Counted from the stretch's first letter, positions 4,448-34,533 are shown. The stretch: 64,000 bases of DNA from Sphingomonadales bacterium (GCA_019455285.1 JACFMS010000007.1:47940-111939); one strand, 5' to 3'. Made by a program: numbers and translations. Notes: generated by a model from the sequence alone, not told the origin.

Positions 4448-5254
4448 TTATGGTGCGTATCGACTTAAAAATTCTTCCAGCTTGGCATTAAAGACTTCAG
4501 GCGCTTCTATATTGCTCAAATGCCCAACACCCTTTAGCACGACTAGGTCTGAGTGAGGGATAAGTCTTGCAAGCGACTCGCTTTCACGAGGCGGTAATAC
4601 TCGGTCCTCGTCACCAACGATGATGAGCGTGGGTACCTTAATTTTAGGCAAAACCGACCGGAAGTCTGTGGTCAAAATTGCCCTTAAGGTCATCTTATAG
4701 GGTTCCGCCCGGAGCGCTTCCAGGGATTGCAGTATCTTGTGCCGGGCTTCCGCCGTGGCTTTGGCCGCCAGCAGCACATCGGCCATCGGGGGCGCGATTT
4801 GCTTGAGCGTCAGGCCTGCTTCCAAAGGCTTCAGGCGCTTGTCGAGAAATTCCGATTGTTCCGCTTTGGACAAGACATGAAATCCGCTGGAGGTGTTCAC
4901 TAAAGTGAGAGTCAGAACCCGTTCCGGATGCCGGCCGTAGAAATCCTGCACGATCATGCCGCCCATGGACAAACCCACCAGATGAGCTTTCTTTGCCCCT
5001 AAGTGGTCCAGCAGGTTGCGCAGGTCTTCGGCAAACTGGGAGAACTCCAGCGGGGTTTTCGGGTCATCACTGTCACCATAGCCCCGGGCATCCCAGGCAA
5101 TGGTGGTGAAGCGGCCGCTGAACTCGTTGACCTGGTCTTGCCAGTTCAGGCGATTGCCGCCGATGCCGTGGAGAAAAATTAAAAAGGGACCGGAACCCGC
5201 GCGCTCATATGCCAGCCGCAGTCCGCCGCTTTGAAAATACTCTGTGCTGCTCAT
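4448..5254 (-). CDS. Alpha/beta-fold hydrolase
   Basis: A 268-residue single-domain alpha/beta hydrolase, with oxyanion-loop motif HGIGGN near 29-34, nucleophile elbow GLSMGG (Ser96), acid Asp217 (GDEDRV) and His245 (GVGHLS). It resembles 3-oxoadipate enol-lactonase and meta-cleavage-product hydrolase relatives in size and layout. Its start codon overlaps the stop of the RidA gene upstream by one base (TAATG), so it is translated with the hydantoinase operon. A late hydrolytic step, such as opening a lactone or cleaving a C-C or ester bond of the operon's product, is likely, but the substrate is unknown. Confidence 0.85.
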   Translation of the reverse strand: MSSTEYFQSGGLRLAYERAGSGPFLIFLHGIGGNRLNWQDQVNEFSGRFTTIAWDARGYGDSDDPKTPLEFSQFAEDLRNLLDHLGAKKAHLVGLSMGGMIVQDFYGRHPERVLTLTLVNTSSGFHVLSKAEQSEFLDKRLKPLEAGLTLKQIAPPMADVLLAAKATAEARHKILQSLEALRAEPYKMTLRAILTTDFRSVLPKIKVPTLIIVGDEDRVLPPRESESLARLIPHSDLVVLKGVGHLSNIEAPEVFNAKLEEFLSRYAP

Positions 5255-5667
5255 TAGTCACGCCCGCGGGGAAGATATGCTGTCGCTTCGACTTCCAACA
5301 TCAGTTCCGGGTAGACCAGGGCGGTTACCTGAACACCGGTGCTGGCGGGTTTATGGGCGCCAAAAAATTCACGCCGCACATCAAAGTAACCTTTAACCGC
5401 CTCAAAGTCGGTGATGTCCACGGTGAAAAAGGTGGTGAGCTTAACAATGTCCGTGAAGGACGCACCGGCTTTGTCCAGTATCTCTTGGATGTTTTCAAAT
5501 ATCTTGCGGGTCTGGGCACGCAGGTCGCCTGCGCCCACCACCTTGCCTTCCCCATCAATGGCGCACTGACCGGACAGGATCACCACATCGCCCACCCGCA
5601 GCCCTTGCGACAGGGGAAATTCCGCATCCCATTGCCAGCCGGGATCAATGAAGTTGATATCCGACAT
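5254..5667 (-). CDS. RidA family (YjgF/UK114) enamine/imine deaminase-like protein
   Basis: 137 residues, the standard length for a RidA monomer (homotrimer, cytoplasmic). RidA proteins hydrolyse reactive enamines and imines, and specialised members act in the breakdown of nitrogen heterocycles or amino sugars. The family core is seen in GDVVILSGQCAID, FENIQEILDKAGAS and the C-terminal ELMLEVEATAYLP. The Arg expected near residue 105 of classical RidA is not clearly in place here, so deaminase activity is not assured. It sits 20 bases after the second HyuB gene and is coupled to the hydrolase, which suggests a role in the same pathway. Confidence 0.85.
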   Translation of the reverse strand: MSDINFIDPGWQWDAEFPLSQGLRVGDVVILSGQCAIDGEGKVVGAGDLRAQTRKIFENIQEILDKAGASFTDIVKLTTFFTVDITDFEAVKGYFDVRREFFGAHKPASTGVQVTALVYPELMLEVEATAYLPRGRD

Positions 5668-5687: not shown

Positions 5688-7454
5688 TCAATTGCCAATT
5701 TCGGTAGAGACGGATGATTGCTGATGTGCCTTGCGCAGCTTGGTGGTGGCTTCTTCGTCCACAGTTTCGGTGGCTGGATTGATAATCACGCCATAATCGC
5801 GCTTAGCGCCTTCCAGGGATACGTAGTCGTCCAGATAGTCGCGCAATACCATGGCAGGATCGCGCTTGAAGGGCGGTCCCCAGCCGCCGCCGCCCGCACT
5901 TTGGGCAAACAGCAGGGCGCCGGGTTCCTGAACATAGCCTTCCGCATCCATGTGGATTTTTTGTTCGTTTGGTCCCTTGTAATCAATGATCACATAGTTG
6001 CCTGCCGCCGGGCCGCCACCGGCAAAGCCCATCAAGGGCCGCTTGGAGGCTTGGACCTGAATATTGTTGATCACCGGATCTGTGGTGCTGACCCGTTGCA
6101 CCCAGTGGGCGGGGCAACCGCGCCACTGGCCGGGTGCTGCGGTATCGGTGCTGTATTCATTTTGCAGATAGAAGAACGGATACAGCACTTCCATAAGTTC
6201 AAAGGATGGGATTTTAAGCGAGGCGTGCGGTGCCGCATAACCGCCCCAGCCATCCGTGCCAAAGGCGCCGCCGCTGGAGGTGGCGCTGGGGCCATAGTCC
6301 ACCGAAACATACATTTCACCGCCATAGCGGGAGTTATGACCGAATACAGTGTTGATGGTCATGTCGATGAAGGCGGAGCCGGTTTTTTCTGGCACGATAT
6401 TCTCCAGGGCTTTCATCACCGCCTGACCAATGTCGTTGCCGATACACAACGTGGAGTTGCCCACCGGGGCGGGTGGCTTCGGGTTCACCACGGACGCTTC
6501 CGGCAGCTTCACCTTGATGGGCCGGAAGAAACCGGAATTCAGCGGAATGTTGGGCATCACCACGGAAAATTCCGTGAATACCCAGGATAGCGTATTGCCG
6601 GGCACGCTGTTGACAAAGCCGCGCGTCTGCGGGTGAGAGCCGGTGAAATCCACAGTGCAGCCGTCGCCTTCCACGTTGATGGTCACATCTACGTTGATGT
6701 CCGTGCCGCCCATGAAGTCGTGTTCCAGAATGCTGCGCCCTTTATATACTCCGTCGGGCCAGCGGGAAATTTCCGCCCGCACCAGACGCTCGCTGTAGCC
6801 CATGATATATTCCACGGCTTCCAGCACCGTATCGATGCCGTACTTTTCCACCATGCGCAGCACCCGGTCTTCGCCCACTTTGCAGGCGCCGATCATGGCG
6901 TTAAGATCACCTTTCATCACCATGGGCAGCCGGTTGTTGGCGGCCAGCAGTTCCAGAAGATCGCGGCGCATTTCGCCCTTTTCACATATCTTCATGGGCG
7001 CCAGACGGAAACCTTCCTGCCATATTTCCGTGGCGGAGGAATTGTAGCCGCCGGGCACCGGGCCGCCCACTTCCACGAAGTGCGCACGCACGGCGGGAAA
7101 AAAGATCGGCTTGTTTTTGTAGAATACCGGCTTGATCAGGGTCCAATCGGGAATGTGGCTGCCGCCGTAGTAAGGATCGGTGGCCAGAACCATATCGCCT
7201 TCATTCAGATTGTATTTGAAGGTTCTTAAAATGGTTTCCACGGAATGAACCGAGGCGTAAATATGGACCGGCTGGGAATTGGCGCGCGCCAGCAGGCTGA
7301 CTTCCTTGCCACGCAAATAAAATACCCCGGTGGAATAATCATGGGCTTCGCTGAAAACCGGCGAGACCGATGTGTTTTCCATGGTTTTGCTGATCTCTTC
7401 AGAGACCGTTTCCAGATATTCCCGAATGATTTCGGCAGTGACCAGATCTTTCAT
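5688..7454 (-). CDS. HyuB-type subunit of hydantoinase/oxoprolinase/carboxylase (copy with intact metal site)
   Basis: A 588-residue member of the hydantoinase B/oxoprolinase family. These subunits carry the site where a substrate phosphorylated by the HyuA partner is hydrolysed or carboxylated. The predicted metal ligands are His100 and Asp103 in DPYYGGSHIPD, with His125 in VRAHFVEVGG. Their spacing (+3, +25) equals that of the Mn ligands I recall for the acetone carboxylase alpha subunit. The Gly-rich C-terminal GGGGWGPPFKRDP is typical of the family. It overlaps the upstream HyuB paralogue by 4 bases (ATGA). Whether the complex is a hydantoinase, lactamase or carboxylase cannot be decided from sequence. 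Confidence 0.88.
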   Translation of the reverse strand: MKDLVTAEIIREYLETVSEEISKTMENTSVSPVFSEAHDYSTGVFYLRGKEVSLLARANSQPVHIYASVHSVETILRTFKYNLNEGDMVLATDPYYGGSHIPDWTLIKPVFYKNKPIFFPAVRAHFVEVGGPVPGGYNSSATEIWQEGFRLAPMKICEKGEMRRDLLELLAANNRLPMVMKGDLNAMIGACKVGEDRVLRMVEKYGIDTVLEAVEYIMGYSERLVRAEISRWPDGVYKGRSILEHDFMGGTDINVDVTINVEGDGCTVDFTGSHPQTRGFVNSVPGNTLSWVFTEFSVVMPNIPLNSGFFRPIKVKLPEASVVNPKPPAPVGNSTLCIGNDIGQAVMKALENIVPEKTGSAFIDMTINTVFGHNSRYGGEMYVSVDYGPSATSSGGAFGTDGWGGYAAPHASLKIPSFELMEVLYPFFYLQNEYSTDTAAPGQWRGCPAHWVQRVSTTDPVINNIQVQASKRPLMGFAGGGPAAGNYVIIDYKGPNEQKIHMDAEGYVQEPGALLFAQSAGGGGWGPPFKRDPAMVLRDYLDDYVSLEGAKRDYGVIINPATETVDEEATTKLRKAHQQSSVSTEIGN

Positions 7455-9208
7455 CTTGCTTCTCCGGCGCGCAGGGGCTTTTGACGCAACCTGGCGGTTT
7501 CTGCGTCATCGATGGTATCATCAGCACGGATGGCAACGCCATAATGCTGCCGGGCGGCATCCCGGCTGACATAATCATTCAGCACATCCTGCAAAACCAG
7601 TTGGGGGTCGCGGTTAAATGGATTGCCCCAGCCCGCGCCGCCGCCCATGGTCAGGGTGATTTCCGCGCCGCCAGCCAATGTCATGTCCAAAAAAGTTTTT
7701 TCTATGATGTCGTTGGCGCCGTTGGTGGTCACGGCCAGGCTGTTGGCGGTGCCGGGCATGCCATCTGCCACGCCGTTTTTTGCAGGATCTGACGCCATGA
7801 CGCAGGCGGTCAGATAATGTTCGCCATCTGCTGTCTGCACCGGCGTCAGCCGGGCCGTGGTGCCGGGTCCGCCCCGCCATTGGCCGGGCCCGCTGGAATC
7901 AACATCAAATTCCAAACTGCTGATCCAGCCTTCGGCGCGGGTTTCATACAATTCCACCGAGGGCAATGGCGCTGCGGCGGACGCCGTCGCCATGCCCCAG
8001 CCATCGCAGTCGTAGGTGCCGCTGCAACCGCCCTGGGCAAAGCGGCTGTAATCATAGCTATCCATCTGTTCCAGGGTGTTGCCGTGGCGAATGCCGCGCT
8101 TCACCGTGAAGGCCAGCAATTTGTTGGCCACTACACTGGCGGCGGCCTTGGGCAGGAACTGCGCCAGGGCGGCGCTGACGGCGTTGGCGACTTCGTGGCC
8201 CGCATGATCCACGCTCCAGCCCGTGGGGGCAGGGTAGGCGGGTTCCACAAGCGAGCCCGGGCGGGTGACGATTTCCACACAGCGGGCAATGCCCGAATTG
8301 CGGGGCACCGCCGCGCCCACCGCCGCCAGCACAGGCAAAAGTGCGTAACCGCTGGCCATGGAGCGGGTGATATTGGTAAACCCGGCGGACTGATCGTCGC
8401 TGCCGCTTAAATCGATTTGCAGCGAACCGTCCTGAACCTTCAGGGCTGCCCGCACATGCAGGTTTTCGCGGTCCTGACAATCGTGCGGCAGAACAGAAAT
8501 CCCTTCATGGCGGCCCGCCGGCCATTGCGCCAGCAGTGTCGACAAGCGCCGGGCGGCATAATCAATGGTCCATTCCATGGCGGCGATGACAGTGTCACGG
8601 CCATGACTGCCCAACAGTTCCTCAAACCGCCGCCGCCCTACCGTGATGGCGGCGGCCATGGCTTCAAGGTCCAATTGCATGGCTTCCGGCGCCCGGCTGT
8701 TGAGCAGCAGCGTGTTCAGTGCATCCTGAACCAGGCGGCCGTCGCGGTAAAACCGCACCGGCGTGCAGCGGGCGCCTTCCTGCCAGATCTCCCGCGCTTT
8801 CGGGTTCAGATTCCCGCGCAGATCCCCGCCAAAATCTTCAATGTGGCCGCGCACACCCAGATAGAAGACGATTTCATCATGGTCGCTGACCGGCGCGATC
8901 AACGTGAATTCCTGCACCCGGCTGCCGCCGCTGTAGGGATCGTTGGTGACAATCATATCTTCCGGCCCCAGATCGTACTGAAAGCGATCCAGAATAGAAG
9001 CGGCGGTATCCGCCATGGAAAACAAATGCACCGGATTATCGATGGCCACCAGCGATGTGTTTTCAGTGAAAATGGCGCTGCAACATTCCTGGGCCTCGCC
9101 AATCATGGGCGAATAGGCGGTGCTGGTGAGCGTGGCCCGCATTTCTGCCACGATCGCATCGAATTTGTTGCGGAGTATTTCCGCGGTAACCGGATTAAGC
9201 TCGGTCAT
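7451..9208 (-). CDS. HyuB-type subunit, divergent paralogue with altered metal site
   Basis: A 585-residue hydantoinase B/oxoprolinase family protein and a paralogue of its downstream neighbour. The equivalent of the metal motif reads DPYSGGSRVQE, so the first two ligands are replaced by Arg97 and Glu100; the third, His122 (VRGHIEDFGG), is kept at the same spacing. The family fold seems otherwise complete, including the C-terminal GGGAGWGNPFNRDP. This suggests a non-catalytic or differently metallated partner subunit, not a spare copy. It is followed by a 4-base overlap into the other HyuB gene and preceded 19 bases away by the HyuA gene, with no room for an acetone-carboxylase-type gamma subunit. 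Confidence 0.88.
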   Translation of the reverse strand: MTELNPVTAEILRNKFDAIVAEMRATLTSTAYSPMIGEAQECCSAIFTENTSLVAIDNPVHLFSMADTAASILDRFQYDLGPEDMIVTNDPYSGGSRVQEFTLIAPVSDHDEIVFYLGVRGHIEDFGGDLRGNLNPKAREIWQEGARCTPVRFYRDGRLVQDALNTLLLNSRAPEAMQLDLEAMAAAITVGRRRFEELLGSHGRDTVIAAMEWTIDYAARRLSTLLAQWPAGRHEGISVLPHDCQDRENLHVRAALKVQDGSLQIDLSGSDDQSAGFTNITRSMASGYALLPVLAAVGAAVPRNSGIARCVEIVTRPGSLVEPAYPAPTGWSVDHAGHEVANAVSAALAQFLPKAAASVVANKLLAFTVKRGIRHGNTLEQMDSYDYSRFAQGGCSGTYDCDGWGMATASAAAPLPSVELYETRAEGWISSLEFDVDSSGPGQWRGGPGTTARLTPVQTADGEHYLTACVMASDPAKNGVADGMPGTANSLAVTTNGANDIIEKTFLDMTLAGGAEITLTMGGGAGWGNPFNRDPQLVLQDVLNDYVSRDAARQHYGVAIRADDTIDDAETARLRQKPLRAGEAR

Positions 9209-9227
9209 CGTGCGCTACTCCTTACCC

Positions 9228-11291
9228 TCAATCGAGGCTTTCGATCACATAGGTCTGATAATGATCCAGCATGGCTTCCTGGCCAGGATAGATCACGATG
9301 GTTGTTTCCGGCTCTTCAATCACCGCAGGACCGGCGATCAGATTGCCGGGCTTTACCCGTGTGCCATCAAAGATATTGGTGTCTATGAAGCCTTCGTTTT
9401 CGAAGAATACCCGGCGCTTTTCCATCAGTGCGTCGTCGGGCTTTTCCGAGGCAAAGGGCTGGCTGCGGTATTTCATGGTATCGCGCACGCCGATGATGTC
9501 CACCCGCAGCCCCATGATCTCCACCGTCACCGTGGGTCGCTTGAAGGAATAAAGCTGTTCGTGAAGTTCGTGGAAGTCCTGAATGGTTTTTTTGAAATTC
9601 AGGTCCGTCACCCGCTTGGTGCGCGACCGGATGGGTACGGTGACTTCGTGGGTCTGGCCCACATAGCGGATGTCCACGAAGCGCTGAGTCTGGCGTTCCA
9701 TGATACCGCTGGCACCATCCAGCAGTTTTTCACCTTCCGATTCCAGCTGTTCGAACACCTCGTTCAATTCATCCAGGTTGATGTCCGACTCGCGGCAGAT
9801 AAAGCTTTTGACCTTGAAAATCTTAAAGTTGGAAATCAGGCAGCCCAGCGCCGAAAATACCCCGGCGTTTTTGGGCACCAGAATGGTTTTGACGCCCAAA
9901 TCCTTGGCCTGGGTGCCCACGTGCACCGGCCCGGCGCCGCCATAGGCCATTAGGGCAAAGTCGCGGGGGTCGCGTCCCCGGGATATGGACACATAGCGGA
10001 TGGCGTTGGTCATGGCGCCGTTGGAGATGCGGAAAATACCGCTGGCGGCTTCTTCCACCGTCATGCCCAAGGGCTTGGCGATGTGTTCTTCAATGGCCTT
10101 TCGGGCGGCATCGATATCCAGCTTCAGTTTGCCGCCGCCGATGGCCTTGGGGCTTAAAAAGCCCAGGATCAGGTTGGCATCGGTCACCGTGGGCTGCGTG
10201 CCGCCCCGGCCATAACAGGCCGGGCCAGGGGTGGATCGGGCGCTTTTGGGACCGACGCGAAGCGCGCCGCCTTCATCGATCCAGGCGATGGAGCCGCCGC
10301 CGGTGCCGATGGAATGAATATCGATCATCGGTGTGGCGACGCGGTAGCGGCTGACCCAGGATTCGACGCCGATATCGGGCTGGCCATCCTTGATCAGGCA
10401 TACGTCATAGCTGGTGCCGCCCATGTCCACGGCGATGATGTCCTTATAGCCGGACCATTCCCCCACCGCGACACTGGCGGTCACCCCGCCAGCGGGACCG
10501 GACTGGATCAGCTCCACACCCCGGTCGCAACAGAAATCAATGTCCATGACCCCGCCATTAGACAACTTGATGAACAGTTGACCGGCAAACCCGCTTTCTT
10601 TGAGCCGTTTTTCCAGACGGCGCAGGTAAACGCTCAGCATCGGACTTAAGTAACTGTTCAGCATGGTGGTGCTGAACCGTTCAAATTCGCGTACCTGCGG
10701 CAGCACTTCGGACGACAGCGAGACGAACACATCCGGGCATTCTTCACGGATGATGTCCCGCACCCGCTTTTCGTGGATGTTGTTTCGGAAAGAGAACAGC
10801 AGACACACCGCGATGGAGTCCACGTTCAGCTTGCGCAGTTTGCGCACGGCTTCGCGCACTTCGTTTTCATCCAATGGAATGGCGATCTCGCCTTGGGCGT
10901 TGATGCGTTCGGTGACGCCCAGGCGGCGCTGGCGGGGCACGATGGGGGTGGGCGCCGGTAAACGGATATCGAAATGATCCTCTTTGTACCCGGTGCGCAG
11001 GTCGATGATATCGCGAAACCCCTTGGTGGTGATCATACCGGTGTTGGCGCCGGAATATTCCAGCATGGCATTGGTGACCACCGTGGTTCCCAGCACCAGC
11101 ACATCAGACTGGGCCAAAAAGCTGGCAACATCGGTCCCGTAGTGTTCCGCCATGGCGGTAATGGCGTTCAAGATACCGGTCGCCTCGTCGTTGGGCGTGG
11201 TCAGTACTTTGCCGCTAAGAGTGTCCTTGTCGCTTTGCACGACGAAGTCGGTAAAAGTGCCGCCCACGTCCACGCCAATTTGATAAACCAT
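9228..11291 (-). CDS. HyuA-type ATPase subunit of hydantoinase/oxoprolinase/carboxylase
   Basis: A 687-residue hydantoinase A/oxoprolinase family protein of normal length. It has the ASKHA-type nucleotide-binding motifs near the N-terminus (VDVGGTFTDF, residues 7-16) and in the middle (VDMGGTSYDV), plus family blocks SGPAGGV, GTGGGSIAW and GGAGPVH. HyuA-type subunits use ATP to phosphorylate a carbonyl or carboxylate of the substrate for the HyuB subunit. It is the only HyuA gene here for two HyuB genes, unlike acetophenone carboxylase, where the ATPase subunit is the duplicated one. It follows a TonB-dependent receptor gene by 90 bases that contain a hairpin. Confidence 0.9.
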   Translation of the reverse strand: MVYQIGVDVGGTFTDFVVQSDKDTLSGKVLTTPNDEATGILNAITAMAEHYGTDVASFLAQSDVLVLGTTVVTNAMLEYSGANTGMITTKGFRDIIDLRTGYKEDHFDIRLPAPTPIVPRQRRLGVTERINAQGEIAIPLDENEVREAVRKLRKLNVDSIAVCLLFSFRNNIHEKRVRDIIREECPDVFVSLSSEVLPQVREFERFSTTMLNSYLSPMLSVYLRRLEKRLKESGFAGQLFIKLSNGGVMDIDFCCDRGVELIQSGPAGGVTASVAVGEWSGYKDIIAVDMGGTSYDVCLIKDGQPDIGVESWVSRYRVATPMIDIHSIGTGGGSIAWIDEGGALRVGPKSARSTPGPACYGRGGTQPTVTDANLILGFLSPKAIGGGKLKLDIDAARKAIEEHIAKPLGMTVEEAASGIFRISNGAMTNAIRYVSISRGRDPRDFALMAYGGAGPVHVGTQAKDLGVKTILVPKNAGVFSALGCLISNFKIFKVKSFICRESDINLDELNEVFEQLESEGEKLLDGASGIMERQTQRFVDIRYVGQTHEVTVPIRSRTKRVTDLNFKKTIQDFHELHEQLYSFKRPTVTVEIMGLRVDIIGVRDTMKYRSQPFASEKPDDALMEKRRVFFENEGFIDTNIFDGTRVKPGNLIAGPAVIEEPETTIVIYPGQEAMLDHYQTYVIESLD

Positions 11292-11381: not shown

Positions 11382-13862
11382 TTAGAACCGGTAGCGCAGT
11401 TCCGCCCCGTAAGCCCGGCGCAAGCCGGGGGATAGGTTCGACCCGCCAAGTTCCGGCAGCGGAATGACCTCGTCAAGGTACTTTTCATTGAAGAGGTTTT
11501 GGGCATAACCGATCAATGACCAGTTTTCCCCCTGCACACCGGCACGCAAGTTAACGGTATTATACGTATCGCGCCGGGTGTTGGTATAGTCTTGCTGTGT
11601 GCCAAACACGGTGGTGGTGGATTGCGCCTGGATCACATGGAACCAGGTGGGACCCACCCACGCCCAATCTACCCGCGAGAAGAAATCAAGGCCGTCCACC
11701 GGGGTGGGAATAATGGCCTGGACGCCGATGTTGGCGGTCCATTTCGGTGCATACGGCACTTCATTGCCTACAGAAATGGGGCGGCCGTCATGGCGTTTGA
11801 TTTTGCCATCAATGACACTGGCGCCGCCGTAGATGGAGAACATCTCATCCAGTTGGGCGTCAAAGCCTGCTTCCAACCCCTTGATGTGGACCTTGTCGAT
11901 ATTGGATACGGCGCGGATAACGCCGAACGGTCCTGTCAGGAATTCGAAAAACTGCATGTCGTCCACGATGGTGTAGAACAGCGAGCCTTCCAAATTGACC
12001 CGGCCATCGGCAAGCGACGATTTAAAGCCTGCTTCAAAGGCATTGGTCACTTCCTTGCGGAACAGGTCGTTTACCTGAATGACTTGCGATCCGATGGGGA
12101 CATTGATGAACAAATCAATGATTTCGGCAATGCCGGTGGCGTTAAAGCCACCGCTTTTGAAGCCAACGCCCCAGCTGCTGAACAAGGTCAGGTTGTCCTG
12201 CGGCTGCCAGCGCAGGGAAACCTTGGGCTGGAAGTGCTTAAAGGTAGCGTCGCGATCCGGCACTGAATTGACAATTTCGCCATCCACAAAGCCGAACGCG
12301 GGATTAAGTGGCGATCCGCCCGCACCGGCAACAATGGGCAACACGAAATCAACATACTGCGTGGGATAAACGCTGGGTGGCGGCACCAGACTGTGGATTT
12401 TGCGCTTTTCACGATCCCAGCGCAGGGCAACGGCCAGTTCCAGGTCCGGCGCCACATCATAGAAAACATGGCCGAAGCCGGAAATGACCTCTGTATCAAA
12501 ATCAGAATGGATCAATGTTTCGGTTCTGCCGGGAACCAGCAAATCACGCACCACCTGGTCGTCGCCGTTGTCAATGCCTTGGCTTAAGCCATATTCACGC
12601 TGGATGTCCAGATAGTACATGCCCACCTGCCAGCGCAAAGTCTGGTCCGATGGCGACGTCAAGCGGAATTCAAAGCTGATATCATCCTGTTCGACGGTCT
12701 GTGTTTGATAGCCATCACATGTTGTGGGGCCATACAAGGGCAGCAGCGCCGAATCAAAGGGCGTGGGCCCTAAGAACGATGGTGGCGGCAGGGTTACGCC
12801 ATCGGCAAACAGCTCTGCGGTGGAAGCAATACAAGTCGGTTCGGTAGCGAAGGTATAGCTGCCTGCAAAAGTGCCATCGGCAAATACAAAGTTATCGATT
12901 TTGCTGTAAAGGCCCCAAACCGTCAGGGTTGCCCAATCCATATCGTAGTCAGCTTTTAAGGAAGCTTCGAAGGTTTTCTGTTCATTGAGCGGATTGACGT
13001 TGTGAAAGTAAACAAACTCGTGATCGTTTACATCTTCAAAGAAGCCGAAGGACTGATTGAACCACACGCCGCCCGCTTCCGGGACTTCCGAATAATTCAG
13101 CTTGGCGTCCAATTTTAAATCGGCAGACGGTTCCCAAATAAAGCGACCGCGTACACTGTAGTTTTCCAGGTCATCCACCCGGGTATCGGGCCGGAATGAA
13201 TTTTTAAAAGTGCCGTCGGTGGTGCGGTAGCTGGCGCTAAGACGGGCGAACAACTGTTCATCCACCAGCGGGCCGCTGATAAAGGCAGAACCGGAATAGG
13301 TGGAATTATTGCCCACCGTCAAGCGCCCGCCAGCTTCAAATTCATTGGTCGGGCGCTCGGTGTCGACAATGATGGCGCCGGCGATGGCGCTGCGGCCATA
13401 AAGCGCGCCTTGCGGCCCTTTCATGACGACGATTTGCGACAGGTCGTCAAATTCGCGATTAAATGCGGTGGGGTTGGTCAGCAGAATGCCATCGACGATG
13501 AAAGCAAAATTCGATTCGCCGTCGCGGGCTTTGTTGATGCCGCGGATGCTGACGGAAAAATCACCCACTTCAACGTTGTTTGTCATGATAACGCCGGGGG
13601 TTAAGCGCACAAAATCTTCGGGGCGCTGGATGCCGGCATTTTCAATCTCCGCATTGCTGAAGGCGGTGATGGTGGCCGGCACGTCGGCCAGGCGTTCCTC
13701 ACGCTGGCGGGCCATGACAACAATTTCTTCAAAGCCGCGGCTTGCGGCGGTCTGTTGGGCGGCCATTGATACGGGGGCAATAAAGCAGGCCGTGGCAACC
13801 GTGGAGAGCAGAGTGGCAAGATAATGGGCTGATTTAACAGGGTTTTCCGGGACGTCGCGCAT
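11382..13862 (-). CDS. TonB-dependent outer-membrane receptor
   Basis: An intact receptor of about 826 residues with a signal peptide, TonB-box-like FEEIVVMARQREE, plug motifs (SIRGINK, MKGPQGALYGRSAIAG) and a 22-strand-type barrel ending YRF. It would import a substrate too large or scarce for porins. I chose the ATG at 13862, since an AAGGA site lies at proper distance; a TTG two codons earlier is possible. It heads the operon with the HyuA/HyuB genes and diverges from a TetR gene whose operator lies in the shared promoter region, so its substrate is probably that of the operon. Confidence 0.92.
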   Translation of the reverse strand: MRDVPENPVKSAHYLATLLSTVATACFIAPVSMAAQQTAASRGFEEIVVMARQREERLADVPATITAFSNAEIENAGIQRPEDFVRLTPGVIMTNNVEVGDFSVSIRGINKARDGESNFAFIVDGILLTNPTAFNREFDDLSQIVVMKGPQGALYGRSAIAGAIIVDTERPTNEFEAGGRLTVGNNSTYSGSAFISGPLVDEQLFARLSASYRTTDGTFKNSFRPDTRVDDLENYSVRGRFIWEPSADLKLDAKLNYSEVPEAGGVWFNQSFGFFEDVNDHEFVYFHNVNPLNEQKTFEASLKADYDMDWATLTVWGLYSKIDNFVFADGTFAGSYTFATEPTCIASTAELFADGVTLPPPSFLGPTPFDSALLPLYGPTTCDGYQTQTVEQDDISFEFRLTSPSDQTLRWQVGMYYLDIQREYGLSQGIDNGDDQVVRDLLVPGRTETLIHSDFDTEVISGFGHVFYDVAPDLELAVALRWDREKRKIHSLVPPPSVYPTQYVDFVLPIVAGAGGSPLNPAFGFVDGEIVNSVPDRDATFKHFQPKVSLRWQPQDNLTLFSSWGVGFKSGGFNATGIAEIIDLFINVPIGSQVIQVNDLFRKEVTNAFEAGFKSSLADGRVNLEGSLFYTIVDDMQFFEFLTGPFGVIRAVSNIDKVHIKGLEAGFDAQLDEMFSIYGGASVIDGKIKRHDGRPISVGNEVPYAPKWTANIGVQAIIPTPVDGLDFFSRVDWAWVGPTWFHVIQAQSTTTVFGTQQDYTNTRRDTYNTVNLRAGVQGENWSLIGYAQNLFNEKYLDEVIPLPELGGSNLSPGLRRAYGAELRYRF

Positions 13863-13913
13863 TTCCAATCCTTATCAATTTGATCTGGTTGAATAGAAAC
13901 TCAGCAACAAGTA

Positions 13914-13962: not shown

Positions 13963-14002
13963 TTTGTAATAACTATCATAAGGTAAATTGAGGGTCAACC
14001 CT

Positions 14003-14695
14003 ATGCCGGTAATGAAAAAGCCTGTCGCTGCGAATAAAATGTCGTCTACTGGTGCCATAAGCAGGGGGAGGAAAAGATTGGCTGCAAAATCAGAAACTTC
14101 TGAGAATGGGGGGGCGCGGCAATCCGGGCGGCCGCGGGCGCCGGAAGTGGACGACGCCATTCTGGACGCCGCCCTGGAACAGATGGCGGAGCAGGGATAT
14201 CAGCGGATGTCGTTCGACTCGGTGGCGAAAGTTGCCGGCGTTGGCAAGGCCACCATTTACCGCCGCTGGTCTTCCAAGGCCGAAGTGGCGACGGCAGCGC
14301 TCAGCAAGAGAATTGATTCAGAACCACAGCTAAAGCAGAAAGCGTTTTCCAAAGAAGCGCTGATTTCCATGCTGGGCGCTATCCGCGAACGCTTGCTGCA
14401 GCCCAACAATATGGCCCTGGTCGGTACATTGCTGGCGGAAGAAAAGCAGACACCGGAGTTGATCAGCTTATTCCGGGAACGGGTCTGGCACCGCCGCAGC
14501 AGCATGATTCGCAGTGTGCTCGAACAAGGTCAGCGCGAAGGCAGGATTGCAAAGCATGTTGATCTGGATATCGTCATCGACATGATCATCGGCTCCATGT
14601 ACGCTTCCTACCTTCGCCGGAACACGATCCCGGCAGATTGGCCGGAAAGAGCCGTGGAAACTATTTGGAGGGGTATAGGCACGGTAACGGTATGA
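14003..14695 (+). CDS. TetR/AcrR family transcriptional regulator
   Basis: About 230 residues. The N-terminal helix-turn-helix domain (AILDAALEQMAEQGY, MSFDSVAKVAGVGKATIYRRW) follows a long basic leader, and the C-terminal half is a ligand-binding helical domain of the TetR_C type. I chose the ATG at 14003, preceded by GAGGG; a TTG at 13988 would add five residues. It diverges from the receptor-hydantoinase operon, and a palindromic operator lies between them, so it is the likely repressor of both, released by a pathway substrate or product. Confidence 0.9.
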   Translation: MPVMKKPVAANKMSSTGAISRGRKRLAAKSETSENGGARQSGRPRAPEVDDAILDAALEQMAEQGYQRMSFDSVAKVAGVGKATIYRRWSSKAEVATAALSKRIDSEPQLKQKAFSKEALISMLGAIRERLLQPNNMALVGTLLAEEKQTPELISLFRERVWHRRSSMIRSVLEQGQREGRIAKHVDLDIVIDMIIGSMYASYLRRNTIPADWPERAVETIWRGIGTVTV

Positions 14696-14786: not shown

Positions 14787-15506
14787 GGGTCTGGCGTAGC
14801 TAAGAAGCCTTAAAGGAGGCAATCTTAGCGAAATGTATCAACGCAAGAGCCGGATGACTGCGCGGCAGTAGAGTCGCCTGCTGGAGCATTTTGTTGTGGG
14901 GACGACGGCCAGGGTGGCTGCCGAACTTGTTGGGGTGCAGAGGACCACGGCCATCAAGTTTTACCACCGCCTACGCCAGCTGATAGCGAGGAAGCTGCCA
15001 AGCTATGAGCTATCACGCGAGGTTGAAGCGGATGAAAGTTACTTTGGTGGGCAACGTAAGGGGAAACACGACAGGGGTGCGGCAGGAAAAGTGCCGGTAT
15101 TTGACCTATTGAAGCGTGGTGGAAAGGTCTACACGGCGATCATCCCTGACGCCTCTGGTGAGACACTTATGGATATCATTGAAGAAAAAGTTACCCCTGA
15201 TAGCATCGTTTACACGGATTGTTTCCTGGCCTATGACGCACTTGACATGTCTGACTTCCATCACGAACGCATCAACCATTCAAAGTTTTTTACGGACAAG
15301 CAAAACCACATCAACGGGATTGAGAACTTTTGGAACCAGGCGAAGCGCCATATGCGCCGTTTTAATGGCATCCCCCGGCAGCATTTATATTGGCTCCTGA
15401 AGGAGTGCGAATGGCGATTCAATGGCGGGAGCCATAAAACCCTACTGCGGCAGCTAAAACGTTGGTATAAACTGGCTCAAAAATAGCCCTTAGCTACGCC
15501 AGCCCC
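14787..15506 (+). mobile_element. IS1595-family (IS1016-like) insertion sequence, 720 bp
   Basis: The element is bounded by 18-base terminal inverted repeats, left GGGTCTGGCGTAGCTAAG (14787-14804) and right complement GGGGCTGGCGTAGCTAAG (15489-15506), with one mismatch. A perfect 8-bp direct repeat flanks it. The single transposase gene and the length of 720 bp fit IS1016-type elements. It lies in the gap between the tetR gene and the branched-chain oxidation cluster and breaks no visible gene. Confidence 0.9.
14833..15486 (+). pseudogene. IS1595-family DDE transposase with premature stop
   Basis: The frame starts at ATG 14833 with an N-terminus typical of IS1016 transposases, then meets TAG at 14869-14871 after 12 codons. 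Beyond it the same frame runs intact to 15486. The DDE-type core is recognisable: EADESYFGG, VYTDCFLAYDAL, and NGIENFWNQAKRHMRRFNG near the C-terminus. Restart at GTG 14896 would give 196 residues lacking the first part of the DNA-binding N-terminus. The single nonsense codon suggests an inactive or weakened copy that could still be moved in trans. Confidence 0.8.
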
Positions 15507-15706: not shown

Positions 15707-16864
15707 TCACGTAAGAATGCCCGCCGCGCGCAGGCGGTTGATTTCTTCCTTAGAGAGCCCGGCCTCCAGCAATATGCTTTCGGAATCTTCCCCCGGCCTG
15801 CGGGGAGCCTTGGGCGCATCGGTTGTCGTGCGGCTGAAGCGTGGGGCCGGCGCATTTTGCACGACGCCATCGACCTCGATGAATGATTGCCTTGCCGCGT
15901 TGTGTCGATGGTTCGGCGCTTCCTCGACGCCGAGCACCGGTGCGAAGCACACGTCAGTGCCTTCCATGATGCGACACCACTCGTCGCGCGTCTTGCTGCG
16001 AAATGCCGTGGCGATCGCTTCACGCAATTTTGGCCATCCCTCTTTGATGGTAGTCGAATCGAGAGCCGGTATTCCCATCAGCCCATAGCGCTCGCGATCC
16101 AGGCCGAGTTTCTCGAGAAGCAGCGTATAGAACTGCGGCTCAAGGGAGCCTATGGCAACGTATCTGCCGTCTTTTGTCTGGTACGTGTCATAATAGGGGG
16201 CGGCGCCGGCGAGAAAGTTTTCGCCTGTCGCATCGCGGAAGTACCCTTCCGCGCGAAAGCCGAAATGCATGGCGAGCAGTGCGATGGCGCCATCCACCAT
16301 CGCGGCATCAACGACCTGGCCGCTGCCCGACTGACGCGCCTCGAAGAGCGCGGCCAGCACGCCAACGGTTAGCAACATCCCCCCGCCGCCGAAGTCCCCG
16401 ACTAGGTTGAGCGGCGGTACCGGTTTGCCACCGGGCGCCCCGATCAAACCGAGGGCACCCGACAGCGCGATGTAGTTGATGTCGTGTCCCGCCGCGTGCG
16501 CCAGCGGGCCATCCTGCCCCCATCCCGTCATGCGTCCATATACCAGGCGCGGATTGCGATCGAGACACTCTTTCGGCCCGACGCCGAGCCGCTCGGCGAC
16601 GCCCGGACGGAATCCTTCGATCAGAACATCCGCCTGCTCCACCAGTTTAAGCAGTACGTCGCTGCCGCCGGGCTGCCTGATATCCATCGCGATCGAACGG
16701 CGGTTGCGCAGCAACGGATCCTTCGGCGTCGGCTCATCGGCGGTAGCTGACGTGCGCTCGATACGCACAACATCGGCGCCCATATCCGCCAACATCATAC
16801 CGCAGAATGGGGTGGGACCGATGCCGCCAATCTCCAATACCTTGATGCCCTTGAGCGGCCCCAT
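15707..16864 (-). CDS. Alpha-methylacyl-CoA racemase-like CaiB/BaiF family protein
   Basis: About 385 residues, start chosen at 16864 because GGGAG precedes it; the ATG at 16885 is poorly placed. The protein aligns with alpha-methylacyl-CoA racemase: predicted catalytic His127 (AAGHDIN), Asp157 (VGDFGGG) and Glu242 (GSLEPQF) lie within one residue of those known for mycobacterial MCR. It would interconvert (2R)- and (2S)-2-methylacyl-CoA, making the isomer that acyl-CoA dehydrogenase can use. It is the last gene of a seven-gene beta-oxidation set. A CoA transferase of the same family is the alternative, but the Glu and His positions favour racemase. Confidence 0.85.
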   Translation of the reverse strand: MGPLKGIKVLEIGGIGPTPFCGMMLADMGADVVRIERTSATADEPTPKDPLLRNRRSIAMDIRQPGGSDVLLKLVEQADVLIEGFRPGVAERLGVGPKECLDRNPRLVYGRMTGWGQDGPLAHAAGHDINYIALSGALGLIGAPGGKPVPPLNLVGDFGGGGMLLTVGVLAALFEARQSGSGQVVDAAMVDGAIALLAMHFGFRAEGYFRDATGENFLAGAAPYYDTYQTKDGRYVAIGSLEPQFYTLLLEKLGLDRERYGLMGIPALDSTTIKEGWPKLREAIATAFRSKTRDEWCRIMEGTDVCFAPVLGVEEAPNHRHNAARQSFIEVDGVVQNAPAPRFSRTTTDAPKAPRRPGEDSESILLEAGLSKEEINRLRAAGILT

Positions 16865-16960
16865 GGAAATCTCCCGCTTACTCATTTCAATAGATACAGA
16901 TCCGGAATTAAGGGGGTTGCCGTTGCGCTCAATCGCCCCAAGGCTCCGGGATTACGCTGG

Positions 16961-18103
16961 TTACAATTGCCGCGCGATCAGCTCGGTCATGACCTCGTTG
17001 GCGCCGCCATAGATCCTCTGGGCGCGGGCATCCGCCCAGGCGCGAGCCACCGGATACTCCCACATGTAGCCATAGCCGCCATGCAACTGAAGACAATCAT
17101 CGATCAGCTTGTTCTGCATCTCGGTGGCTGTCATCTTGGCGGTCGCGGCCATCGTGGCGTCCAGACGTCCGGCGACGTGCAGCGCAATGCACCTGTCGAC
17201 GAATACCTGAATCACCTCCAACTGTGCTGAAGCGCGGGCAAGTACGAAGCGCGTGTTCTGAAAATCGAACGTGGTCTTACCGAATATTTTGCGATTACGG
17301 GTAAATTCGACGGTATGCTCCAAGATTGCGCGAGTAGCGGAAACTGCCTGGATGGCAATGATCAGCCGCTCCTGCGGCAGTTCACTCATCAGATGATGCA
17401 GGCCGTGATGTTCCTGGCCAACTAGATTGCTCACCGGTACGCGAACATCATCGAAAAATAGTTCGGAGGTGTCCTGCGCCTTCATCCCGATCTTTTCAAG
17501 CTTGCGCCCCCGCCTGAATCCCGGTCGGTCCGCCTCGACGATAATGAGGCTCAGGCCCGACTGGTTTGTTGTATCGGCGGTACGAGCCACCACGACCACG
17601 AAATCGGCGCTTTGCCCATTCGTGATGAAGGTTTTCGAACCGCTGATGATGTACTCATCTCCCTCGCGAATGGCGCGCGTCGATATTGCTCGCAGATCAC
17701 TACCCGTCCCGGGCTCAGTCATGGCGATTGCCGCCACGACTTCACCACGGGCCATCGGCGGCAGCCACCTACGCCGGATAGCTTCACTGCCATGATGCAG
17801 AAGATAGGGAGCCACAATATCGGAATGCAGGGCGAATCCGGGCCCGGAGGCGCCGATCCGCATCAACTCCTCGATCAGGAGCGCGGAAGCGCGAAAGTCA
17901 AATCCGCCGCCGCCGTACTCCACCGGCATCCCCATGCACAGCAAGCCGAGTTCGCCGGCCTTGAGCCATGCTGACCTTGGCACGACGCCGGTTTTCTCCC
18001 AGGCGTCGTGATGAGGAGCGATTTCCTGCTCGCAGAACCGTCGCGCGGTCTGCCTGATCAGGTCATGCTCCGAGTCGAATATATCTCTGGGAAAGGTAAT
18101 CAT
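16961..18103 (-). CDS. Acyl-CoA dehydrogenase
   Basis: A 380-residue FAD-dependent acyl-CoA dehydrogenase with all three domains. Motifs include AMTEPGTGSDL (residues 127-137), GSKTFITNG and the C-terminal RIYGGANEVM. The C-terminal motif lacks the MCAD-type Glu, but Glu245 in LPQERL sits where the long-chain and isovaleryl-type enzymes have their base, so it should be active. It introduces the alpha-beta double bond. It starts one base after the SDR stop. The family branch is consistent with branched or long acyl-CoA substrates. Confidence 0.92.
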   Translation of the reverse strand: MITFPRDIFDSEHDLIRQTARRFCEQEIAPHHDAWEKTGVVPRSAWLKAGELGLLCMGMPVEYGGGGFDFRASALLIEELMRIGASGPGFALHSDIVAPYLLHHGSEAIRRRWLPPMARGEVVAAIAMTEPGTGSDLRAISTRAIREGDEYIISGSKTFITNGQSADFVVVVARTADTTNQSGLSLIIVEADRPGFRRGRKLEKIGMKAQDTSELFFDDVRVPVSNLVGQEHHGLHHLMSELPQERLIIAIQAVSATRAILEHTVEFTRNRKIFGKTTFDFQNTRFVLARASAQLEVIQVFVDRCIALHVAGRLDATMAATAKMTATEMQNKLIDDCLQLHGGYGYMWEYPVARAWADARAQRIYGGANEVMTELIARQL

Positions 18104-18104
18104 C

Positions 18105-18932
18105 TTACATTAACAAGCCGCCGCCACACACGAGCACCTGACCACTAATGTAGTCAGATTCGGGCGAACAGAAGAGATAGATGGCGTCGGCGGCTTCCTT
18201 GGGCGTGCCGGCGCGACCTAAAGGCGCCATTGTAGAGATCGCTTGCAGCAATTTCGGTTGTATGCCGACACCGAGTTCACGGCCTTCGATGCTGATATGC
18301 GCCTCTCCGCTGGTCAGTGGTTGCGTCAGACGAGTTTCGATCAATCCAAACGCCACACAGTTGACGTTGACCCGATAGCGGCCCCATTCCTTGCAGAGCG
18401 TGCGCGTCAGCCCGACGATGCCGGCCTTGCCGACGGAATAGCCGGCCTGTCCCGCATTGCCATAAAGCCCGGCGAGAGATGATATGTTCACCACCTTGCG
18501 GTAGGCGTATTCCTGGCGCTCATCTTCACGCTTGACCGCTTCGCGGATATGGGCTGTCGCGGCGCGGAGAATGCGAAACGGCGCGATCAGGTGAATATCC
18601 AGCATTGCCTGGAATTGCTCATCGCTTGTCTTCTGAATCACGCTGTCCCAAGTGTAGCCGGCGTTGTTGACGATGATATGAACGTCGCCAAACGTCTCGA
18701 GGGCGGCCGCGACGAAGCGCTCGCCGAAGTTGGGCTCGGTGACGCTGCCGACGACGGACGTGATCTCGCCACCCATCTCCTGGACGATCTTTACTGTCTC
18801 AGCAACCGGCGCTTCATCAAGATCGTTTAGTACGATTTTTGCGCCTTCACGAGCGAGCTTAAGTGCAAGGGCGCGGCCAATGCCGCGGCCGCCGCCCGTG
18901 ACGAGGGCGACCTTTCCGGCCAGTCTGGTCAT
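18105..18932 (-). CDS. SDR family dehydrogenase, probable beta-hydroxyacyl-CoA oxidation
   Basis: A 275-residue short-chain dehydrogenase with the NAD(P) loop GGGRGIGRA (residues 13-21), NNAGYTWD, catalytic Ser in NISSLAG and Tyr-Lys in YSVGK. The Asp of NDLDEAP after the second strand favours NAD+. Its layout is like the dehydrogenase domain of peroxisomal multifunctional enzyme 2, and its neighbours (MaoC hydratases, thiolase, racemase) fit oxidation of a beta-hydroxyacyl-CoA. It overlaps the MaoC gene upstream by 4 bases. Confidence 0.88.
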   Translation of the reverse strand: MTRLAGKVALVTGGGRGIGRALALKLAREGAKIVLNDLDEAPVAETVKIVQEMGGEITSVVGSVTEPNFGERFVAAALETFGDVHIIVNNAGYTWDSVIQKTSDEQFQAMLDIHLIAPFRILRAATAHIREAVKREDERQEYAYRKVVNISSLAGLYGNAGQAGYSVGKAGIVGLTRTLCKEWGRYRVNVNCVAFGLIETRLTQPLTSGEAHISIEGRELGVGIQPKLLQAISTMAPLGRAGTPKEAADAIYLFCSPESDYISGQVLVCGGGLLM

Positions 18933-19369
18933 ATGTTCTGTTCCTCTAGATTGATTTCGACAACCGCATCACCGAGAAGCGTGGGCTCGCCTCGTGAGTT
19001 GATGACAGTCAGTTTAAGATTAAGACGCTGGCCCGAGGCGCAATCCTCAGCCGTTATAACTTCCCCGATGCAGTCGAGACGATCCCGGACGTGGGTGATG
19101 GCCGAGAATCGAACGCCGAACTCGCGCAGCGCAAATGGCCCGAAGGCATTCGTGAGCGCCCTGCCGAGATACGCCATCGGCAACATGCCCTGAGCGAATA
19201 CATCGTCCATGCCGGCGGCTCGCGCGGCGTCAAGATCTATATGCATCGGATTATGATCATTGGAAGCGCCGGCAAACAATGCCAGAGTCGCCCTGCTGAC
19301 CGGTGTAATCTGCAACGTTGGAATGAGATCGCCTGGCGCATAGCGGTGTGCATGAGCGACAGCGGTCAT
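18929..19369 (-). CDS. MaoC-like enoyl-CoA hydratase, catalytic half
   Basis: A 146-residue hotdog-fold protein of the MaoC/R-specific hydratase family. The hydratase-2 motif is present as ASNDHNPMHID, with the Asp and His needed for water addition. It overlaps the companion half by 4 bases upstream and the SDR by 4 bases downstream. The two halves probably form a heterodimer with one active site, as in split MaoC hydratases of actinobacterial sterol degradation. The product would be a beta-hydroxyacyl-CoA for the SDR. Confidence 0.85.
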   Translation of the reverse strand: MTAVAHAHRYAPGDLIPTLQITPVSRATLALFAGASNDHNPMHIDLDAARAAGMDDVFAQGMLPMAYLGRALTNAFGPFALREFGVRFSAITHVRDRLDCIGEVITAEDCASGQRLNLKLTVINSRGEPTLLGDAVVEINLEEQNI

Positions 19370-19821
19370 TTTGCACTCCTGGATTGACGAACCACTACTG
19401 TCTTCGACATCTCGACCGCCAGTTCGCCACGTTGATTCGTAGCCTCGGTGCGGATGATGATGAAAAGCAACGCTCCGCCTTTCTTCTCGTAAATGTCTTC
19501 AACGGTGGACTGCATCGTAATCCGATCTCCGACGCAAATGGGCTTGTGGTATATGAAGCGTTGGCTGCCATGCAGTATCCGATTAAGGCGTATGCCCAGT
19601 TTTTCTAACATTACAAATGGCTGCGATTGATCCAGCTCGAGCGCAAACGCATAGGTTGGCGGTGCGGCAAGACCAGGAAGTCCAGCGGCGCGTGCAGCGG
19701 CTTCTTCTGTGTAGATAGGGTTGGTTTCGCCAATCACGCGGGCGAAGAACCGGAGCATCCCTTGTTCGACATCGACGGAGTACGCTGGATGCCGATAACC
19801 GATATGTGCGACATCTGCCAT
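19366..19821 (-). CDS. MaoC-like hydratase, non-catalytic (FAS1-type N-terminal) half
   Basis: 151 residues from ATG 19821, which lies 4 bases after the thiolase stop; the frame stays open further upstream, but that part overlaps the thiolase and does not look like protein. The hydratase motif is degenerate (GETNPIYTEEA: Tyr where His is needed), as is normal for the substrate-binding half of split hydratases. The C-terminal hotdog strands (FIYHKPICVGDRI) are clear. It should pair with the catalytic half encoded next to it. Confidence 0.82.
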   Translation of the reverse strand: MADVAHIGYRHPAYSVDVEQGMLRFFARVIGETNPIYTEEAAARAAGLPGLAAPPTYAFALELDQSQPFVMLEKLGIRLNRILHGSQRFIYHKPICVGDRITMQSTVEDIYEKKGGALLFIIIRTEATNQRGELAVEMSKTVVVRQSRSAK

Positions 19822-19825
19822 GGAA

Positions 19826-21010
19826 TTAAGCTGACTGGTAGAGCGTGACGACACAGGCGCCTCCCATGCCGAGGTTGTGCTGAAGCGCATTACGAGCGCC
19901 ATCGACCTGCCGCTTCTCCGCCGTGCCGCGCAATTGGTGGGTGATTTCATAACATTGAGCAAGTCCGGTTGCGCCAAGCGGGTGTCCTTTCGACAAGAGG
20001 CCGCCCGAAGGATTCGTCACGACTTGACCGCCATAGGTATTGGCGCCATCTTCGACAAATTTCTCAGCGCCTCCCTCAGGACAAAAACCCAACGCTTCGT
20101 AACAAAGCAATTCATTTTGCGCGAAGCAGTCGTGCAGTTCCACGAGGTCAATATCTTCTGGGCCGACGCCAGCCGCTTCGTATACTCTGGACGCCCCTTC
20201 GCGCGCCATATCGTAGCCGACGACTTTGATCATATCGCGCTCTTCGAATGTGGACGGAAAGTCAGTCACCATTGCCTGGGCGGCGATGACGACATCCGTG
20301 CGCAATCCTCGAGCTCTGGCGAATTCATCGGATACAAGCACAGCCGCGGCGGCGCCGCAGGTGGGCGGGCAAGCCATTAGGCGCGTCATCACGCCTGGCC
20401 AAATGACCTGATCCCCCAGCACATCTTCGTCTGTCAACACCTTGCGGAATACGGCCAGCGGGTTATTTGCCGCATGGCGCGATGCCTTGGCGCGAATCTT
20501 AGCGAACGTTTTAAGGGGCGTGCCATATTTCTGCATGTGGCTCAGCCCGGCGCCGCCGAAATAACGTAGCGCCATCGGCAGTTGCGGCATACCAACCAGC
20601 TCCAGCGTCAGTGCATTAAACTTGTCAAACGGGGTTGGGCCGTCAATCTCCCCTGTACCGAGCGCGCCGGGCTTCATTTCTTCAAATCCGAGCGCCAGTA
20701 CGCACTCAGCCGCGCCTGTCTCGATCGCCTGGCGCGCCAGGAAAAGCGCCGTCGATCCGCTTGAACAATTGTTATTGACGTTGAAGATAGGAATGCCTGT
20801 CATGCCCAGGCCATAAAGCGTATGCTGTCCACAGGTAGAGTGCCCATGGACGTACCCGGCATAGGCCTGCTCTATATCGCTGTAGGTAATGCATGCATCA
20901 GATATCGCAAGCTGCGCCGCCTGCATACCCATTACATTGTAGGACTCGCTGGTGCCCGGCTTCTTGAAGGGAATCATGCCCACACCAGCAACATGGATTT
21001 TACGCATCAT
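19826..21010 (-). CDS. SCP2-type thiolase
   Basis: A 394-residue thiolase of the sterol-carrier-protein X family. Cys82 (NNNCSSGST), the HDCF motif, His in KGHPLGATG and the last Cys in GMGGACVV are all present, so it should be a true thiolase and not an Ltp2-type aldolase. No DUF35 partner, which Ltp2 aldolases need, is encoded in the window. SCP2 thiolases accept 2-methyl-3-ketoacyl-CoA, which ordinary thiolases handle badly, and this fits the racemase in the same operon. Two ATG codons follow a GGAG site at 21010. Confidence 0.9.
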   Translation of the reverse strand: MMRKIHVAGVGMIPFKKPGTSESYNVMGMQAAQLAISDACITYSDIEQAYAGYVHGHSTCGQHTLYGLGMTGIPIFNVNNNCSSGSTALFLARQAIETGAAECVLALGFEEMKPGALGTGEIDGPTPFDKFNALTLELVGMPQLPMALRYFGGAGLSHMQKYGTPLKTFAKIRAKASRHAANNPLAVFRKVLTDEDVLGDQVIWPGVMTRLMACPPTCGAAAAVLVSDEFARARGLRTDVVIAAQAMVTDFPSTFEERDMIKVVGYDMAREGASRVYEAAGVGPEDIDLVELHDCFAQNELLCYEALGFCPEGGAEKFVEDGANTYGGQVVTNPSGGLLSKGHPLGATGLAQCYEITHQLRGTAEKRQVDGARNALQHNLGMGGACVVTLYQSA

Positions 21011-21027
21011 AATACTCCAACAGTTTT

Positions 21028-22599: not shown

Positions 22600-22723
22600 A
22601 TTCGCCTCCGGCGACGTCGCCGTTTCAATAAGTTATGCCCGCCTAGATTCCAAACCGACGCTCACGGTTCTGATAAATTATCGCTCAAAAAGGTCAGCGT
22701 AGCGACGGTATTTTTTGTTGTGA

Positions 22724-25027: not shown

Positions 25028-25215
25028 GATTTTATACCCTACCTGACATACCCTATTAGAATTAATCCAGGAAAAAACCCCGTGTGATAGCCGTCTGTTT
25101 ACCGCCAAGTTGCGGGCGGTTCCGCGGTGGGGGCTAAAGGGCGGTTCACTATCGGGTATCCTCCGCTCTTGTATCTAGGCGAATTAACCACGCACTTTCT
25201 TGGGCGCTAGTGAAC

Positions 25216-33192: not shown

Positions 33193-33597
33193 CTATTTTT
33201 CTATGAATTTCCTAATTTTCTCTTTGACTTTTTCAGTATTCTTTATTTGGCATTCCCAAATTACCAACGATCTCCACCCCATTCTTTTTAAATTCTTTAG
33301 GTGTATTTTATCTCTTTCTTTGTTTTTATTAAGTTTGACAAGCCAGTATTCTTGATGTGATTTTGGCGATCTTGCGCCACGCCGACAATCATGTTGGTGC
33401 CAAAAGCATCCATGTACGAAAATAATCTTTCGTCTTTTTGAGAAAACTATATCTGGCTTTCCAGGCAGGTCTGACCGATGCAATCGATAACGATATCCCA
33501 GCGCGTGTACTAACCTACGTATTTCAATCTCTGCGCTCGTGTTCTTACCCTTAACCGCTCGCATAATTCTGCTGCGATCATCGAGTGTATTCTTCAT
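33193..33597 (-). CDS. vsr: Very short patch repair endonuclease
   Basis: 134 residues, the usual size. Vsr nicks DNA 5' of a T:G mismatch left by deamination of 5-methylcytosine, next to the target of its partner methyltransferase. The motifs are clear: RSRIMRAVKGKNTSAE at the N-terminus, KPDIVF with the catalytic Asp, and HGCFWHQHDC with the zinc and catalytic His/Cys. It overlaps the preceding gene by 4 bases (ATGA), in an operon with a cytosine-C5 methyltransferase. The coding sequence is much richer in A and T than der, whose stop is only 3 bases away in convergent orientation. Confidence 0.93.
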   Translation of the reverse strand: MKNTLDDRSRIMRAVKGKNTSAEIEIRRLVHALGYRYRLHRSDLPGKPDIVFSKRRKIIFVHGCFWHQHDCRRGARSPKSHQEYWLVKLNKNKERDKIHLKNLKRMGWRSLVIWECQIKNTEKVKEKIRKFIEK

Positions 33598-34529: not shown

Positions 34530-34533
34530 TGTT

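Follow-up and report, generated by a model that had tools for sequence, protein, structure and literature searches.

A HyuB paralogue with an altered metal site, encoded beside an intact sister in A-B'-B operons of distantly related bacteria

The caprolactamase CapAB of Pseudomonas jessenii (PDB 6YRA) is built from the HyuA and HyuB families. It has a single CapB and forms a symmetric (alpha-beta)2 assembly, with a core of two CapB subunits that contact each other via residues 129-174 and carry one CapA each (PMC8453981). The metal ligands of CapB are Asp41, His99, Asp102 and His124. Replacing any one of the four with Ala, as in H99A, abolishes activity (PMC8453981).

Acetone carboxylase AcxABC of Xanthobacter autotrophicus (PDB 5SVB/5SVC/5M45) has longer subunits and an additional gamma subunit, and both metal subunits of the hexamer are identical and active. 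Its Mn ligands are His150, Asp153 and His175 plus an exchangeable Glu89 (PMC5543143, PMC12250083). This carboxylate acts as a gate: it can swing onto the metal, and through it the metal site communicates with the ATP site some 40 A away (PMC12250083). The acetophenone carboxylase (Apc) core of Aromatoleum aromaticum (PDB 5L9W) is a family member with a duplicated subunit. As a sequence-only reading of the present DNA had stated, the duplicated subunit is the ATPase one (alpha, alpha'), and gamma is present (PMC5214803).

Here we describe a locus of a Sphingomonadales bacterium in which the metal subunit is duplicated instead, and in which one of the two copies has an altered metal site. The window is the whole stretch of DNA that was analysed, 64,000 nucleotides in length, and all coordinates refer to it.

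Layout of the locus

On the minus strand, between 5688 and 11291, hyuA (A) is followed by the upstream copy hyuB' (B') and then by the downstream copy hyuB (B). These genes and their neighbours are as follows.

9228..11291, minus strand: hyuA, 687 aa, ATPase (ASKHA-type) subunit; reading frame open, Pfam match
7451..9208, minus strand: hyuB', 585 aa, HyuB paralogue with altered metal site (E41, R97, E100, H122)
5688..7454, minus strand: hyuB, 588 aa, full metal-ligand set (D39, H100, D103, H125)
7451..7454, minus strand: ATGA stop/start overlap of 4 nt, from hyuB' to hyuB
5254..5667, minus strand: RidA/L-PSP family protein, 137 aa, 20 nt past hyuB; same position in two gammaproteobacterial (gamma) MAG operons
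4448..5254, minus strand: alpha/beta hydrolase, 268 aa; same position in two gamma MAG operons
11382..13868, minus strand: TonB-dependent receptor, upstream of hyuA
13988..14695, plus strand: TetR-family regulator, divergent

All three hyu reading frames are open, and their Pfam scores lie far above the cut-offs with near full-length matches. The sequence-only reading had proposed two tandem HyuB genes joined by ATGA behind one HyuA, and both the 4-nt overlap and the three reading frames are confirmed. HyuA matches PF01968, PF05378 and PF19278 over its full length. Its phosphate motifs (DxGGTxTD and DxGGT) are intact as DVGGTFTDF at residue 8 and DMGGTSYDV at residue 289, so that ATP-driven activation of a cyclic amide is to be expected. 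Against PF02538 (Hydantoinase B/oxoprolinase; cut-off 26.8 bits) B scores 455.8 bits and B' 386.2 bits.

The two-gene layout of ATP-dependent hydantoinases and lactamases comprises one A and one B gene, whereas here there are one A and two B genes. No family of the small gamma subunit with four Cys was found among the neighbouring proteins scanned, which bears out the earlier description of one HyuA without gamma. CapAB is one of the closest known systems and shares the HyuA/HyuB families and, with B, all four ligands; the window differs in encoding a second, metal-site-altered B'. In structural alignment B is 29% and B' 26% identical to CapB. The scores stay under the NCBIfam equivalog cut-offs for CapA/CapB (A 695.6/1000, B 351.6/1000 and B' 224.5/1000 bits) and under those for Apc (best 379.8/1500 bits for HyuA and 146.4/1500 for B).

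The gene set probably reaches on to 4448, so as to include the RidA and alpha/beta hydrolase genes (4448-5667). The hydrolase resembles the PcaD/RutD models with scores under their cut-offs. From their positions, the TonB-dependent receptor is likely the uptake partner of the set, and the TetR-family regulator possibly controls it.

Loss of the metal site in a conserved lineage

The ligands of B and B' can be assigned because relatives with solved structures, CapB and acetone carboxylase, are available. His150, Asp153 and His175 of acetone carboxylase correspond to His99, Asp102 and His124 of CapB, and the gating carboxylate Glu89 to Asp41. B has the acetone carboxylase spacing (His, +3 Asp, +25 His) and shares the gate carboxylate with it (PMC5543143). 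The ligand codons of B are GAT (D39), CAC (H100), GAT (D103) and CAC (H125). Those at the same positions of B' are listed below.

9086..9088, minus strand: GAA, Glu41, gate-ligand position (CapB Asp41)
8918..8920, minus strand: CGG, Arg97 (CapB His99, acetone carboxylase His150)
8909..8911, minus strand: GAA, Glu100 (CapB Asp102)
8843..8845, minus strand: CAC, His122, retained (CapB His124)

The residues named from sequence (H100, D103 and H125 in B; R97, E100 and H122 in B') agree with the codons. The Mn ligands named for acetone carboxylase were correct (PMC5543143, PMC12250083), and the Arg/Glu positions are metal ligands in the solved homologues CapB and acetone carboxylase. The set of three named ligands therefore stands, but it overlooked the fourth, the gating carboxylate (Asp39 in B, Glu41 in B'). 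B has the tetrad D/E-H-D-H of metal-dependent HyuB proteins of the CapB/AcxA type and B' does not. Three of its four ligand positions are changed; two of the changes are Asp to Glu and the drastic one is His to Arg.

Relatives were sought with a degenerate DNA pattern for (N/T)DPYxGGx[R/S]xxE, run on a collection of 84,980 species represented by one genome apiece. It gave 31 matches, six of them HyuB, each the first HyuB after a HyuA. The carriers are four gammaproteobacterial MAGs, Amycolatopsis jejuensis (one) and Nocardia australiensis (one). None of the remaining 25 matches resembled A, B or B' at E 1e-5, the six matches of the same pattern in viral contigs included no relative, and a single-protein scan of genome contigs with B' as query gave no match. 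The gamma MAG operons are about 75-78% (HyuA), about 51% (B') and 73-78% (B) identical to the window; those of A. jejuensis and N. australiensis are 55% (A), 33-36% (B') and 39-42% (B) identical. Because the pattern selects for Arg (or Ser) and Glu, a second, whole-genome search was run with a B' profile. It added five operons, all unselected for the motif: four belong to A. jejuensis and one to a second Amycolatopsis genome.

The search for other hyuA-hyuB-hyuB operons that the earlier reading had proposed thus yielded 11 A-B'-B operons beyond the window. The resulting 12 (the window, four gammaproteobacterial MAGs, six in Amycolatopsis and one in Nocardia) all have the gene order A-B'-B, and B' and B overlap by 4 or 8 nt in 10 of the 11 operons measured. 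His99 (CapB numbering) is replaced in every B', by Arg in 11 and Gln in one, and is present in every partner B. The five B' unselected for the motif have Arg (four) or Gln (one) at this position and Asp at the Asp102 position. Over all B' the latter holds Glu in seven, six of them picked by the pattern, and Asp in five. The gate position is E, Q or D and the His124 position H, R or P; the B' of C20a and G889 still have both Asp41 and Asp102. The proposed conservation of an Arg/Glu change accordingly holds for His to Arg, with one Gln, but not for Glu.

Among the other HyuB rows, some of which are near-identical, 35 of 40 have D-H-D-H and the remaining five depart from it at a single position, whereas none of the 12 B' has the tetrad, so the loss in B' is not a matter of chance. 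A local mutation, which orthologues retaining His/Asp would have indicated, is rejected, as none of the B' orthologues found keeps His99. Since the same arrangement and the same loss recur in distantly related bacteria of different phyla, the metal-site-altered three-gene arrangement is a maintained design. The partner B tetrads are D-H-D-H in eight operons and D-H-C-H in four, all actinobacterial (L039, L042, L080 and L081); Cys at the Asp102 ligand may reflect another metal preference.

Tandem HyuB genes as such are not novel. Two other types of A-B-B locus were found, in which both HyuB are D-H-D-H:

L091, 4453-7748: Amycolatopsis jejuensis
L092, 13031-16570: gamma MAG
L094, 1678-5050: gamma MAG

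Like the window these have one HyuA and two adjacent HyuB, but both sites are intact and the duplications are separate. Of the new layout suggested earlier, the altered B' lineage therefore stands and the tandem by itself does not. No description of a tandem, second or pseudo-HyuB was found in the open-access literature, by which measure a conserved HyuB lineage lacking the metal site, in one operon with an intact sister, appears to be new. Proteins named 'hydantoinase B' from homology can thus be devoid of an active site. The host genome carries some ten HyuB genes. HyuB with Gln at His99 occur in another lineage (L003, on contig 43 of G000, and L010, in G001), and a HyuB in two pieces in different frames, adjoining a HyuA (L097, 3752-5504 on contig 36 of G000), is probably a frameshifted HyuB of the host genome.

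Maximum-likelihood analysis of 52 HyuB places B' in one clade and partner B in another, each with support of 100/99. The two are joined in a group (98/98) that also holds a stand-alone pair, L011 and L012, attached beside partner B with weak support (84/58). The well-supported inner branching of the B' and B subtrees matches, as expected if the two genes had stayed paired ever since a single duplication. That duplication is old, and it gave rise to B' and B as distinct clades. B' evolves under purifying selection: among the gamma MAGs its dN/dS is 0.10-0.12, compared with 0.03-0.06 for A and B.

Possible roles of B'

The predicted structures of B' and B both fold like CapB (TM 0.85 and 0.89; mean AlphaFold pLDDT 86 and 89), with matches to solved HyuB-type subunits along their length, and the C-terminal fold of B' is intact in the model. 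Conservation of individual stretches was taken as identity between the gamma and actinobacterial groups, which overall is 33% for B' vs 43% for B. The B-B contact stretch remains at 48% vs 55%. The HyuA-facing helices (30% vs 47%) and the C-terminus (27% vs 55%) are relaxed in B'. The former metal and gate stretch (CapB 36-128) is 38% identical in B' vs 36% in B. This pocket of B' is still constrained, which makes a structural or effector pocket likelier than a relic.

The best explanation, somewhat more probable than not, is a three-gene hydrolase of cyclic amides, ATP-dependent and of the hydantoinase/caprolactamase type, which in its B-B core pairs a catalytic B with a metal-free, pseudo-catalytic B' as a heterodimer; we infer its stoichiometry, the inactivity of B', the substrate and the regulatory role. 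HyuA would use ATP to activate a stable cyclic amide and the metal site of HyuB would open the activated ring. B' would take the place of one B in the core, with the levels of the two matched through translational coupling. It would retain the fold and the B-B contact stretch with no usable metal site, Arg (Gln once) standing at His99, and would stabilise or conformationally regulate the active A-B half. Arg at the first-His position could fix the gate of B' in a single state. Further steps on the product of ring opening would fall to RidA and the alpha/beta hydrolase. The neighbour genes fit amide catabolism.

The loss of His99 in 12/12 B', five of them unselected, beside a partner B that has it in 12/12 counts for the heterodimer. 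So do the constant gene order, the single duplication, the dN/dS of B', the coding overlap, the CapB-like fold, the inactivity of H99A in CapB and the retained B-B stretch beside relaxed HyuA-facing helices. The sole fixed charge reversal of the whole protein, at CapB-157 (Glu in all B, Arg in all B'; Glu158 and Arg155 in the window), lies inside the B-B stretch and weakly suggests a B-B' heterodimer; this column varies freely in other HyuB, and the chance of its falling in the stretch is about 8% (46/555 columns). Counted against the heterodimer is that Gln stands at His124 in N-methylhydantoinase and at His99 in two stand-alone HyuB, so that a single lost ligand need not mean inactivity, and that two of the B' retain both Asp41 and Asp102. 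The relaxed HyuA-facing helices could mean that B' binds no HyuA, with a stoichiometry other than A-B-B'-A.

The same relaxation weighs against B' as a neofunctionalised catalytic subunit, which we consider rather unlikely. One HyuA would then serve both a metal-dependent A-B and an A-B' that is metal-free or uses another metal, is Arg-assisted and acts on different or successive substrates. Arginine is able to bind phosphorylated or carboxylated intermediates, and that of B' could do so. The predicted C-terminal fold is intact, and the CapB 36-128 stretch is, unlike the rest of B', as conserved as in B. However, no B'-specific set of acid/base or nucleophilic residues stands out, and CapB needs every one of its four ligands (PMC8453981). 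A decaying duplicate, its function lost locally or recently and leaving no role, would account for the lost ligands and for a dN/dS two to three times that of A and B among the gamma MAGs. It is very improbable, and was rejected or downgraded, given a single old duplication, a dN/dS of about 0.1, a retained coding overlap, B' intact in 12/12 operons and, in 11 of them, an Arg at one shared position.

An acetone- or acetophenone-type carboxylase with an extra alpha subunit would share superfamily and fold, and the best structural matches include 5L9W, 5M45 and 5SVB. This too is improbable and was downgraded: gamma families are missing from the neighbouring proteins scanned, and the neighbours are amide or imine hydrolases. 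The best-scoring models for A and B are those of caprolactamase, though under their cut-offs, and B and B' are of CapB length, lacking the long gamma-binding C-terminal arms of Acx/Apc (PMC8453981).

The heterodimer can be taken further, though only tentatively: the ATP-dependent ring-opening enzyme may be obligately heteromeric, with the form A-B.B'-A. Arg in place of a catalytic metal ligand in one core subunit would then have turned half of a normally symmetric, allosterically coupled machine into a dedicated conformational regulator. If true, such a complex would be the counterpart of acetophenone carboxylase, in which duplication affected the ATPase subunit rather than the metal one. If the complex is natural, Arg in one metal site of the core would separate catalysis from communication and make the coupling between the halves directly testable.

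Distribution and genomic surroundings

The A-B'-B operon is sporadic, and horizontal spread is likely. Beyond the window's own genome B' was not found in 150 host relatives at E 1e-60, where only lower-scoring HyuB appeared, or in a 399-genome sample of the host phylum at E 1e-70. Among 80 genomes of the genus Amycolatopsis it occurs in one beyond the known carriers. No additional carrier turned up among 299 genomes of the Amycolatopsis order and 297 of its phylum, nor in the order (53 genomes) and class (258 genomes) of the gamma carriers; scoring in the large samples covered the few best candidates of each genome. The annotated plasmid neighbourhoods of B' relatives that were inspected hold ordinary A/B pairs, and none of the plasmid matches listed is more than about 31% identical.

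One gamma MAG operon is accompanied by an amidohydrolase and TonB receptors, and the actinobacterial operons by an AstE/AspA-type protein, an M20 peptidase or an amidohydrolase. In the window, positions 1-28300 have a G+C content of 55.9%, vs 62-64% in most of the rest. They contain catabolic genes, TonB receptors and an IS1595-type transposase (14896-15486), and are possibly an acquired catabolic island. Within this region, 15707-25108 (minus strand) is a beta-oxidation-type catabolic set with genes for CoA-transferase III, acyl-CoA dehydrogenase, SDR, MaoC-like protein, thiolase and AMP-ligase, and a TonB receptor upstream. A cassette of 44.7% G+C at 33193-35679, with a C5-cytosine methylase, a DUF4928 protein and a Vsr endonuclease, is likely a restriction-modification island.
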